Source of the DNA: Acidobacteria bacterium SCN 69-37
Lineage (GTDB): Bacteria; Acidobacteriota; Vicinamibacteria; Vicinamibacterales; SCN-69-37
NCBI GenBank assembly: GCA_001724025.1
Contig: MEDJ01000009.1
Coordinates: 167,777 to 231,776, forward strand
DNA: 64,000 nucleotides
Direction: 5' to 3'
Below the pieces are notes generated by a model that was not told the DNA's origin, made no database searches, and saw nothing but the letters and a program-made list of their open reading frames with translations. Position numbers and translations under genes: made by a program. Shown in pieces: positions 33,447 to 57,722 of the stretch; the stretch's first letter is position 1; every line of letters begins with the position of its first letter.

Positions 33447-34415
33447 ATGTGGACGTACATCCTGAGGCGATGCCTCCAGACGCTGCCGCTGCTGCTGGGC
33501 ATCTCCGCACTCACGTTCCTGCTGCTGCAACTGGCGCCCGGTGACTTCCTGAACCAGATGGCGGAGAACCCCGCCATCTCGCAGGAGGCCATCGACGCCA
33601 TGCGGCAGCGCTTCGGCCTGGATCAGCCGTGGTACGTGCAGTACGGCATCTACCTGCGCAACATCCTCCTGCACTTCGACTTCGGCCAGTCGTTCTCGCG
33701 GCACCAGCCGGTCTTTACCGTCATCGTCGAGGGGCTCGGCAATACGCTGATCCTGGCCGTCGCCGCAGCGCTCGTCACCTGGCTGCTGGCCATCCCGCTC
33801 GGGGTCCTCGCGGCCGCGCGCCAGCACACGTGGGTCGACCGCGTCCTGTCCGTCGTCTCGTTCGTCTGGCTGTCGATCCCCGAAATCCTGTCGGGCCTGC
33901 TGCTGCTCATGCTGGCCGCGCGCACCGGCTGGTTCCCCGTGGGCGGCATGCGGTCAATCGACTACGAAGAACTCTCGTTCGTCGGCAAGGCGCTCGACCT
34001 GGCCTGGCACCTGTGCCTGCCGGCCCTCGTCGTCGGCCTGGTGCCGCTGGCGGGCCGCATGCGGCAGATGCGCGCGAGCCTGCTCGACGTGCTGCGCCTC
34101 GACTACGTGACCACCGCGCGGGCCAAGGGCCTCGACGAGCGCGTCGTCGTGTTCAAGCACGCGCTGCGCAACGCGCTGAACCCGATGATCACGCTCTTCG
34201 GATACACGCTCGGCGCCCTGGTGTCCGGATCGTTCATCGCCGAGATCATCTTCTCGTGGCCCGGACTCGGCCGACTCACGCTCGATGCGATCCTGACGCA
34301 GGATCAGTACCTCGTCATGGGATCCGTCCTCATGGCGTCGGTCGTGCTGATTCTCGGGAACCTCATCGCCGACATCCTGCTGGCCGTCGCGGATCCGAGG
34401 ATCAGCTATGACTGA
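33447..34415 (+). CDS. oppB: Peptide ABC transporter permease (OppB/DppB type)
   Basis: The 322-residue permease begins with the typical cytoplasmic start and first helix (MWTYILRRCLQTLPLLLGISALTFLLLQLAPGD). It has the EAA loop (LDYVTTARAKGLDERVVVFKHALRNALNPMIT), which contacts the ATPases. It overlaps the next permease gene by 8 bp. Confidence 0.94.
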   Translation: MWTYILRRCLQTLPLLLGISALTFLLLQLAPGDFLNQMAENPAISQEAIDAMRQRFGLDQPWYVQYGIYLRNILLHFDFGQSFSRHQPVFTVIVEGLGNTLILAVAAALVTWLLAIPLGVLAAARQHTWVDRVLSVVSFVWLSIPEILSGLLLLMLAARTGWFPVGGMRSIDYEELSFVGKALDLAWHLCLPALVVGLVPLAGRMRQMRASLLDVLRLDYVTTARAKGLDERVVVFKHALRNALNPMITLFGYTLGALVSGSFIAEIIFSWPGLGRLTLDAILTQDQYLVMGSVLMASVVLILGNLIADILLAVADPRISYD

Positions 34416-35570
34416 GAATCGGCGACCGGCTGCCGATGGCGCGACACACGGAGCCCCGGGTCTTCAGACCCGGGGAACGGCGCCCGCACCGCCCCAGTCT
34501 CCTGCCCGCATTTTCTGGCGCCAGATGAAGAAGAGTCCGCTCGCGGTGGCGGGCGGACTCCTGCTCCTGGTGTTCTACGCCCTGGCGGCCATCGCGCCGT
34601 TCGTCGCCCCGTACTCGCAGGAGGAGATGGATCGCGATCGGTACTATCACCCGCCGCACTCGCTGCACTGGGTCGATTCCGGTGGGCGATTCCACCTCCT
34701 GCCCGTGGTGCGCCAGACCGTGCTCGCCGATCCGCGGACGTTCCGCTACGACGAGATGCCGGGATCGGATCAGCCGCTGCGCTTCTTCGTCCAGGGCGCG
34801 CCGTATCACCTGCTCGGCGTGGTGCCGATGACCCGCCACCTGTTCGGCGTGGACGCGCCGGGACGCGTGTACCTGCTCGGCACCGACTCGTTCGGCCGCG
34901 ACCAGTTCTCGCGCCTGCTGTTCGGCGCGCAGATCTCGCTCACCGTCGGACTCGTTGGCATCGTCGTCTCGTTCGCCATCGGCCTGGTGCTGGGCGGCAT
35001 CGCCGGGTACTTCGGCGGCTGGGTCGATACCGTCATCATGCGGTTCTCGGAACTGCTGCTGAGCATCCCGTCGCTCTACTTGATCATCGCGCTGCGCGCG
35101 GTCTTCCCGATCGACCTGCCCAGCCAGTACGTCTATCTCGGCATCGTGGGCATCCTGGCGTTCATCGGCTGGGCCAGCCTGGCCCGCGTGATTCGCGGCC
35201 TGGTGCTCTCGATCCGCAAGCAGGAGTTCGTGACCGCGGCCGAGGCGCTCGGCGTGGGACGGTTCCGCATCATCCTCCGCCACATCCTGCCGAATACGCT
35301 GTCGTTCGTGATCGTGGCCGCTACGGTATCGGTGCCGGGCTACATCCTCGGCGAGGTCGTGCTCTCGTTCCTGGGCGTCGGCGTGCAGGAGCCCGCGGCC
35401 TCGTGGGGCAACATGCTGAACCAGGCCCGCAGCGTGCGCGCGCTGACGACGTTCCCGTGGCTGCTCTACGTGCCCGGGCTCGCGATCTTCCTGACGGTGA
35501 TGGCGTTCAACTTCCTCGGCGACGGCCTGCGCGACGCGCTCGATCCCCGCCGCGTAACGGGAGGCCGGTC

Positions 35571-35574
<4 letters not shown>
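34408..35574 (+). CDS. oppC: Peptide ABC transporter permease (OppC/DppC type) with repeat-derived N-terminal insert
   Basis: The 388-residue permease has the N-terminal OppC region ([19 protein letters not shown]). It has a long periplasmic insert before [20 protein letters not shown] and the EAA loop ([27 protein letters not shown]). Residues 15-24 are encoded by a palindromic repeat (34450-34478) kept in frame within the cytoplasmic N-terminal tail. The stop overlaps the GTG of the following ATPase gene. Confidence 0.93.
34450..34478. repeat. REP-like palindrome (GGAGCCCCGGGTCTTCAGAC type) inside oppC
   Basis: This 29-bp unit has a CCCCGGGTCT/AGACCCGGGG hairpin flanked by GGAG and AAC. 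It is identical in type to the terminal arms of the element at 45291-45483. It contributes codons 15-24 of the permease. Confidence 0.85.
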
Positions 35575-44367: not shown

Positions 44368-45144
44368 ATGCACACGAAGGACGCCATCGTCCAGAACTGG
44401 CTGCCGCGCTACACGGGATCGACAGCCACCGCCATTGCCCCGTACGTCCTGTTGACGAATTTCAGCGGATATCTCGACACGTTCGCCGCGCTGACGGGCG
44501 CCACGCTCGTCGGACTCGACCGGCCGATGCCCAACGCCACGGCCGATGGCGTCACGATGATCAACTTCGGCATGGGCAGCCCGAACGCGGCGACGGTGAT
44601 GGACATCCTGAGCGCCATCACGCCGAAGGCCGTACTGCTGCTCGGCAAGTGCGGCGGTCTCAAGAAGAAGAACCAGGTCGGCGATCTCGTGCTGCCGATT
44701 GCGGCTATCCGCGGTGAGGGCACGTCGAACGACTACCTGCTGCCCGAGGTCCCGGCGCTGCCGGCCTTCAGCCTGCAGCGCGCCGTCTCCACCGTGATCC
44801 GCGACCTGGGCCACGACTACTGGACCGGCACGGTCTACACCACCAATCGGCGCGTCTGGGAGCACGACGAGGCGTTCAAGGAGTACCTGCGGAAGACGCG
44901 CTGCATGGCCATCGACATGGAGACCGCCACGGTGTTCGCGGCCGGGTTCGCCAACGAGATCCCGTCGGGCTCGCTGCTGCTGGTCAGCGATCAGCCGATG
45001 ATTCCCGAGGGCGTGAAAACGGAAGCCTCCGACCGCGTGGTGACCGACAGGTTCGTCGAGCGACACATCATCATCGGGATCGAGGCGCTGCGGTTGATCC
45101 GCCGCGAGGGCCGCAGCGTCAAACACCTGCGTTTCGACGAGTGA
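44368..45144 (+). CDS. amn: AMP nucleosidase-like purine nucleoside phosphorylase-family enzyme
   Basis: The 258-residue protein has the nucleoside-phosphorylase fold. It shows INFGMGSPNAATVMDIL, LLLGKCGGLKKKNQVGDLVLP, AIDMETATVFAAGFAN and the SDQPMIPEGVKT ending, arrangements typical of short AMP nucleosidases (AMP to adenine and ribose-5-phosphate). It lacks the N-terminal regulatory domain of E. coli Amn. The stop overlaps the next gene (GTGA). Confidence 0.86.
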   Translation: MHTKDAIVQNWLPRYTGSTATAIAPYVLLTNFSGYLDTFAALTGATLVGLDRPMPNATADGVTMINFGMGSPNAATVMDILSAITPKAVLLLGKCGGLKKKNQVGDLVLPIAAIRGEGTSNDYLLPEVPALPAFSLQRAVSTVIRDLGHDYWTGTVYTTNRRVWEHDEAFKEYLRKTRCMAIDMETATVFAAGFANEIPSGSLLLVSDQPMIPEGVKTEASDRVVTDRFVERHIIIGIEALRLIRREGRSVKHLRFDE

Positions 45145-46343
45145 CCACGCGCGCCCTCTCCTGCCACGCGACGTATGCCTGCCGCGAATCGGGCGCGTGC
45201 TGCACGTCCGGCTGGCCCATCGAGATCGAACCGGATCGGCTGGCGGCGGCCGAACGCGCGATCGTCGCGGGGGCGATCGTTGTGTCCCACGTTTCCCCGG
45301 GTCTGAAGACCCGGGGCTCCATCGGACAAACACCGATCCCCATCGTTGAATCCGATCTCGCCGTATCACGTCCCACCGATCACTCCGTACGGAGCCCCGG
45401 TCTTTCCCGACGGAGCCCCCGTCTCTCCGTACGGAGCCCCGGTCTTTCGGTACGGAGCCCCGGGTCTTCAGACCCGGGGAAACACGTATCACCTCCCACG
45501 CTCCTGCCGATGATCGACGGCGCCTGTGTCTTCCACCGCGCCAGCGGTTCGGCGCGCTGCACGTTGCACCACGCACTCGGTCACGCGGCCCTGCCGCTCG
45601 CGTGCCGCCAGTTTCCGCGCGTCGTCGTGGTCGATCCGCGCGGCGTGTCCGTCACGCTGTCGCACTACTGCCCCACAGCGGCCGCAATGCTCGAGACAAC
45701 CGCGCCGATCGCGATCGTGACGGATGCGGACGCGTTCCCGCCGGGTGGCGAGTACGTGGGCCTCGACGTGCGCGACGGTCTGCCGCCGGCGCTGCGGCCC
45801 GACATGCTCATGGGCTGGGAGGACTGGTGGCACTGGGAGGAACAGGCCGTCGCCCTGCTGTCGGCTGTCGACGACGCGGCCGATGCCCTGGCGCGGCTCG
45901 CGCACGCGGTGGAATTCACGCGCGACTGGCGCCCGGCCGATGGACCGCTGCGCGACCGCATCGACGCCGCGTTCCAATCGGCTCGTCACGACACGCCGGC
46001 GCGCGTTGCCACAGCCTGTCGATCAGACGATGCGATGGCGGATGTCGTGGCAGCGGTGCCGGACGGCATGCGCGGGGACGCGAGGCGCGCGATCGGGACG
46101 CGCGGCGCCCGCGTGCCCATTCACGTGCATCGACACCTGCTCATCGCGCACGCGTTCGCGAACTGGACCGCACACATCGGTGAAGGCCTGCGGACCTGGC
46201 TGCGGTCGATCGAGACCGCGCACGCGCTCCTGCTATCAGGCCTCGGCGTACGCGACGTCGATCTGCTGCTGCGGCACCTGGTGGATCCCCGGGCGCTGGC
46301 GAGACGCTGGGTGGATGTGGAAGGAAACAAACGAGAGGTGTAG
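45141..46343 (+). CDS. CxxCxxCC (YkgJ-type) metal/cluster-binding protein with in-frame repeat insertion
   Basis: The 400-residue protein has the N-terminal Cys cluster CHATYACRESGACC and, after an insertion, CVFHRASGSARCTLHHALGHAALPLACRQFPR. This second stretch is the second half of the YkgJ/PF03692-type motif, thought to bind zinc or an Fe-S cluster. Between them, residues about 51-114 come entirely from a 193-bp palindromic element (45291-45483), which has split the conserved domain while keeping the frame. The rest is helical and of unknown function. It is translationally coupled to the nucleosidase. The TAG stop is part of a GTAG palindrome. Confidence 0.7.
   Translation: MTTRALSCHATYACRESGACCTSGWPIEIEPDRLAAAERAIVAGAIVVSHVSPGLKTRGSIGQTPIPIVESDLAVSRPTDHSVRSPGLSRRSPRLSVRSPGLSVRSPGSSDPGKHVSPPTLLPMIDGACVFHRASGSARCTLHHALGHAALPLACRQFPRVVVVDPRGVSVTLSHYCPTAAAMLETTAPIAIVTDADAFPPGGEYVGLDVRDGLPPALRPDMLMGWEDWWHWEEQAVALLSAVDDAADALARLAHAVEFTRDWRPADGPLRDRIDAAFQSARHDTPARVATACRSDDAMADVVAAVPDGMRGDARRAIGTRGARVPIHVHRHLLIAHAFANWTAHIGEGLRTWLRSIETAHALLLSGLGVRDVDLLLRHLVDPRALARRWVDVEGNKREV
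45291..45483. repeat. 193-bp REP-flanked (BIME-like) element with 30-bp terminal inverted repeats, inside a gene
   Basis: Arms 45291-45320 and 45454-45483 are perfect 30-bp inverted copies, each itself a CCCCGGGTCT/AGACCCGGGG hairpin. From 45391 the GGAGCCCC unit recurs with an exact 21-bp period (45391, 45412, 45433, 45454). This is translated as a 7-residue repeat (SPGLSVR-like). The element is inserted within the CxxCxxCC domain with the frame maintained. Confidence 0.9.
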
Positions 46344-46367
46344 GGGCGAGGCATGCCTCGCCCCTAC
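46340..46367. repeat. Second 28-bp GTAG-type perfect palindrome
   Basis: It starts GTAGGGGCGAGG, is centred on CATG and ends CGCCCCTAC. It carries the TAG stop of the upstream gene and lies between convergent genes, as does the copy at 9904. Both are followed by a similar AATTGCC a few bases later. Confidence 0.85.
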
Positions 46368-57617: not shown

Positions 57618-57722
57618 GTTCCCCGGGGCTGAAGCCCCGGGGCTCCGTACGGCGCGCGCGCACGCCACACACCGCACGCGGCCCGCAGTCTTCGGAGCCC
57701 CGGGGCTTCAGCCCCGGGGAAC
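57618..57722. repeat. 105-bp element with perfect 29-bp terminal inverted repeats
   Basis: The arms GTTCCCCGGGGCTGAAGCCC... (57618-57646) and its inverted copy (57694-57722) each form a hairpin. They enclose 47 bp. The arm design is the same as 45291-45483 but with GGCTGAAGCC in place of GTCTGAAGAC. It lies in the divergent gap before the molybdopterin enzyme. Confidence 0.88.

Follow-up and report, generated by a model that had tools for sequence, protein, structure and literature searches.

A window of 64,000 nucleotides from Acidobacteria bacterium SCN 69-37 contains a gene whose reading frame runs uninterrupted through a strongly palindromic block, and raises the question of what this block is and how it came to lie in frame within a gene. 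The features needed to address this are as follows.

45141-46343, plus strand: host gene, 400 aa, CxxCxxCC-like and weakly flagellin-lysine-N-methylase-like
45288-45292 and again 45483-45487, no strand: CACGT, 195 nt (65 codons) apart; a possible target duplication, or chance
45291-45320, minus strand: REP copy A, GGAG tag inward, GGAGCCCCGGGTCTTCAGACCCGGGGAAAC
45321-45390, plus strand: spacer between copy A and the truncated REP units; original linker, or DNA brought in with the insertion
45362-45377, no strand: CGTATCACGTCCCACC, identical at 14 of 16 positions to 45485-45500, 123 nt (41 codons) apart
45391-45453, plus strand: three truncated REP units (GGAG tag and 5' half-stem), repeating every 21 bp (7 codons)
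45454-45483, plus strand: REP copy B, full, the same as copy A in inverse orientation

The host gene and its palindromic block

The GTG start of the host gene overlaps the stop of an AMP nucleosidase gene upstream. A YkgJ-type (CxxCxxCC) domain had been proposed for its product, and the resemblance holds to the extent that two orthologues match PF03692 at 20.2-20.4 bits, but these scores are below the gathering cut-off of 23 and the window's 400-aa protein has no Pfam match. An AlphaFold2 model of the host protein, built on a three-sequence alignment, has a pLDDT of 33 and a pTM of 0.21, values too low for the model to be informative. At the other end of the gene, the stop codon is the TAG of the GTAG in a perfect 28-bp palindrome at 46340-46367 (GTAGGGGCGAGGCATGCCTCGCCCCTAC), whose core has 31 genome copies (≤2 mismatches) and represents a second palindrome family, GTAG-tagged at this position.

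The two arms of the block, 30 nt each and 133 nt apart, are 100% complementary, as the first-pass annotation had stated. Each arm is a hairpin composed of GGAG, a 9-bp stem with its loop, CCCCGGGTC(TTCA)GACCCGGGG, and AAAC, and the arms are oppositely oriented with their GGAG tags facing inward. A 70-nt spacer is followed by three shortened units (GGAGCCCCGGTCTTTC..) that run in 21-bp steps into the second full hairpin; GGAGCCCC accordingly recurs every 21 bp exactly, at 45391, 45412, 45433 and 45454, and the four units described initially are three truncated and one full. The open frame of 400 aa includes the corresponding 7-residue tandem repeat (VRSPGLS/RRSPRLS/VRSPGLS/VRSPGSS), also as first reported. 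The window has five occurrences of the palindrome core, where shuffled sequence would give 0.01, the predicted fold of a 206-nt stretch has z = -10, and an Rfam scan of the window returns tRNA only.

The block as a whole is single-copy in the genome, and only the 30-nt arms and the truncated units are repeated parts. The spacer has no second match across the genome, such that the whole pair with its spacer is not a recurring unit in the manner of a REPIN, and the 30-mer of both arms has no other copy in the 1.58 Mb sampled. The make-up of the block, two inverted REPs plus truncated REP units, is BIME-like. The earlier description of a BIME-like palindromic element lying in frame in a gene is borne out, each arm being a REP of the RAYT-associated type that occurs at least 201 times in the genome. 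What is mobile, however, is the 30-nt REP, i.e. the GGAG tag and the 9-bp-stem hairpin, rather than the 193-bp element.

REPs and a RAYT transposase in the genome

The REP consensus GGAGCCCYGGGNCTTCAGNCCCRGGG (≤1 mismatch) has 201 copies in the 4.43-Mb genome, with none for a reversed-pattern control, and the pattern without the tag has 206 matches. A slightly looser pattern yields 200 copies in 117 clusters within sampled tiles of 1.58 Mb (36% of the genome), some of which were picked for known REP copies. The main subtypes in this sample are CCCTGGGG.., CCCCGAGG.., CCCCGGGG.. and CCCCGGGTC.., and the GGAG tag is present in the common subtypes, with the caveat that the search pattern itself includes GGAG. 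Neighbouring REPs are inverted in 69 of 83 pairs and 64 of these 69 have different arms, an arrangement that is a BIME-like mosaic of subtypes; tag-inward pairs have identical arms in 5 of 33 cases, the window pair among them. A further inverted pair of the same family, intergenic and with tags inward, is located in the window at 57621-57719 (no strand). Target-site duplications are absent around the 117 REP clusters at any offset, and the CACGT at the window block is therefore not usable as a general signature.

The genome has a single Y1 transposase gene (PF01797; C1:290286-290594), with the same REPs on either side of it, and reading of its translation identifies the motifs DHVH (HuH), LWQ and YIVANP (tyrosine). 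A strong RAYT match (>140 bits) is found in four of 14 family genomes, with REP counts of 201, 150, 17 and 5, and the other ten have 0-8 REPs (Mann-Whitney p = 0.009), including G004 and G010 with few REPs (5 and 8) and no strong RAYT match. G005, G007 and G008 likewise have the corresponding REP variants on the flanks of their RAYTs, and G017, whose RAYT is more distant, has GGAG-GCCGGGTCTTCAGACCCGGC next to it. To judge from these sequence relationships, the spread of REPs in this genome has very probably been helped by the one transposase gene.

REPs within genes

REP clusters are enriched between convergent genes (35/114, vs 170/1203 for all gene pairs) and strongly depleted within genes, where about 5 of 117 sampled clusters lie, as against a coding fraction of 83.5%. 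Both this count and the coding fraction derive from a simple home-made codon-usage gene caller run on the 1.58 Mb and supplemented by reading, the caller itself missing the N-terminal part of the host gene. The five genic clusters, whose REPs are located in linkers, loops or tails, are in the host gene and in the following four.

G000:C11:60589-60614 (L010): mutL; REP of the same subtype as the window's, in the linker that joins the N-terminal domains to MutL_C
G000:C22:53119-53300 (L170): FHA/ABC-transporter protein; three REPs in a linker, in frame
G000:C19:269436-269509 (L166): PMT-like membrane protein; inverted REP pair in a loop, in frame
34450-34479 of the window, plus strand: OppC-type permease (ORF 34408-35574); REP of the same subtype as the block arms, in frame in the N-terminal tail

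The permease ORF may have its true start downstream of the REP. The REP is free of stops in five of six frames, with a TGA in the sixth, and the presence of genic copies in frame would be most simply accounted for if others had been lost by selection.

Orthologues and alternative explanations

Homologues of the host gene are present in 33 of 60 related genomes, its nearest named relatives being in Acidobacteria MAGs at 31-38% identity. Comparison of orthologues had been set beforehand as the refuting test for an insertion, and all 29 related loci examined by sequence (the window's own excluded) lack a REP or insert at the window gene's site. This site is linker 1, between a conserved CC..W block and a CxFH block, which is ~13 aa long in genus g4, roughly 30-50 aa in other close relatives and >100 aa in the window gene; this wide range indicates that the length of the linker is not constrained. 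Two members of genus g4, G004 and G007, carry a REP pair of their own in this gene, in frame and in a different, C-terminal linker, and a 39-nt (13-codon) tandem expansion of this pair is present in G007 only. From REPs at different linkers in two genera, and from the difference between G004 and G007, it follows that there have been at least two entries into this gene and that insert length has changed between relatives.

We consider it highly probable that a RAYT-associated inverted REP pair, BIME- or REPIN-like, entered a length-tolerant linker of a CxxCxxCC-type gene. The open frame and an otherwise conserved protein could also be expected of an ancient linker domain that is repetitive in appearance only, but the arms copy dispersed repeats located elsewhere and the examined orthologues are without the insert, making an ancient domain extremely improbable. 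It is also unlikely that the gene is a pseudogene, or that the element parts two independently translated pieces with the open frame an accident. When REP sequences are shuffled, 1/4 to 2/5 of the results carry no stop in any of the six frames, and the codon-usage gene caller begins the gene past the element, at 45510; against this, the N-terminal block ahead of the element, CRESGACCTSGWPI, retains the orthologues' motif, the 400 aa contain no stop or frameshift, and the gene still overlaps its upstream neighbour at the start.

The highly stable predicted fold might suggest that the hairpin is a selected regulatory device in the gene, either an attenuator or an mRNA stabiliser. The hairpin is not followed by a U-run, however, it is missing from the examined orthologues, and the same REPs occur in ~117 unrelated clusters within one third of the genome, such that we give a regulatory role very little credence. 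The preferred reading, insertion of a REP pair, has points against it too: the unique spacer leaves the pair with no dispersed twin, such as one might look for if it were a mobile REPIN; the tag is GGAG, where described RAYT systems have GTAG or GTGG; and a few REPs are present in G004 and G010 with no strong RAYT match.

A proposed history of the insertion

A clean 193-bp insertion, as first envisaged, is incompatible with the reading frame, as 193 is not a multiple of three and exact excision of 45291-45483 shifts the frame into stops; the insertion was thus 192 or 195 bp, or there were two in-frame events. The remaining in-frame histories are a 195-nt insertion bounded by CACGT, or steps of 30 nt and 123 nt. 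The 16-bp repeat at 45362-45377 and 45485-45500, which was spotted post hoc, is a possible trace of a separate second step, with REP A (30 nt) entering alone, a 123-nt segment carrying the REP B array entering or growing later between the 16-bp repeats, and native linker remaining between the two. Removal of 30 + 123 nt keeps the frame, leaves a linker as long as those of the closest orthologues, and scores highest against the orthologue profile, at 447.2 bits compared to 435.0 with 195 nt removed; the uniqueness of the spacer in the genome also fits two steps. However, shuffling the 14 putatively native residues gives a mean of 445.0 bits, with 58 of 300 shuffles scoring at least as high, showing that the gain reflects length and not sequence, and sequence homology of the spacer to orthologous linkers is indistinguishable from that of shuffles. 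A common origin of the two arms is moreover suggested by their being the same 30-mer, of which the 1.58 Mb sampled contains no further copy. We place two steps at somewhat below an even chance; this is a sub-question of the preferred explanation and leaves the identity of the REPs unaffected.

The events may be reconstructed as follows. The single RAYT, a Y1 HuH enzyme by its motifs, very probably acts on single-stranded REP hairpins that bear GGAG as a 5' tag, recognising and mobilising them. REP DNA moved by it would have inserted into the stretch of the host gene that separates its two conserved motif blocks. The insertion would have survived because the net insertion is a multiple of three, the REP is stop-free in five of six frames and the linker was already variable in length; translation presumably proceeds through the element, with a near-neutral effect on the protein. 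Later, the REP end would have grown by tandem copying of its tag-side half at the 21-bp period.

Truncated units lie almost exclusively on the tag side of REPs

The truncated units have a marked polarity. Truncated REP copies ≤60 nt from a full REP lie on its tag side in 18 instances and on the other side in one (p about 8e-5; REP clusters in tiles L092-L171, and also L034, L226 and L232), and the count is 2 to 0 for the tag side in part of G005. The in-gene arrays of the window gene and of G007 have the same tag-side polarity. In arrays of three or more, the period is constant within each locus (19, 21, 24, 27 or 37), and the full REP always comes last. Polar truncated arrays of this kind would be expected from copying that begins at the tag and breaks off within the stem; involvement of the RAYT is speculation. 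The tag-side bias is apparently new, with no mention found in those portions of the RAYT and REP literature covered by a limited search. More broadly, strand-specific and possibly RAYT-dependent copying might add the tag and 5' half-stem to the tag side of REPs, producing tandem peptide repeats in genes where the period is divisible by three, with the CxxCxxCC gene as a recurrent landing site in this family, but we put this forward only as a long shot, with a low probability of being correct.

Comparison with known systems

The mode of REP spread is still an open question in the field. This system offers one transposase, more than 200 tagged hairpins, relatives with and without both, and a gene entered twice independently, and its polar partial-copy arrays resemble the trace of a copying step. 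It is also a clear added case of selfish DNA extending ordinary proteins in frame, MutL included.

The RAYT/REP arrangement is as described in PMC2817692 (REPs, BIMEs and REPtrons) and PMC8266576 (TnpAREP); REPINs are the subject of PMC3116915. The REPs here share with RAYT-associated REPs and BIMEs the short GC-rich hairpin, the fixed unpaired 5' tetranucleotide, a copy number above 200, a mostly extragenic location, inverted pairs of mosaic subtypes, and the presence of REPs of the same kind on both sides of a Y1 HuH transposase gene. They differ in the tag (GGAG, vs GTAG/GTGG), which also sets them apart from the GTAG superfamily of Di Nocera, in the unique spacer of the window pair, in that RAYT activity here is predicted, and in an apparently acidobacterial lineage.

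Intragenic REPs are reported in PMC3733652 (Di Nocera 2013), e.g. in O. terrae, Thauera and Xanthomonas recB, where in-frame REPs are single, paired or grouped, add roughly 20-80 aa and are biased to DNA repair genes, and where linker tolerance is proposed. The same features of putative in-frame read-through and a DNA repair gene hit, here MutL, are seen in our genome; the differences are a REP family and lineage outside the survey as far as searched, entry of the same gene at different linkers in two genera, and arrays in which truncated units are placed with a fixed polarity. The resemblance to Rickettsia palindromic elements (RPE) suggested in the first-pass annotation is one of effect, in that both are in-frame palindromic repeats in ORFs probably encoding functional proteins, but not of membership: the sequences differ, and the window REP lacks the CGTC tag of the families to which rickettsial RPE-4 and RPE-6 belong and which have no associated transposase (PMC3733652). 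In-gene REPs are a known, if uncommon, route by which selfish DNA lengthens proteins, and the REP family is newly described here.
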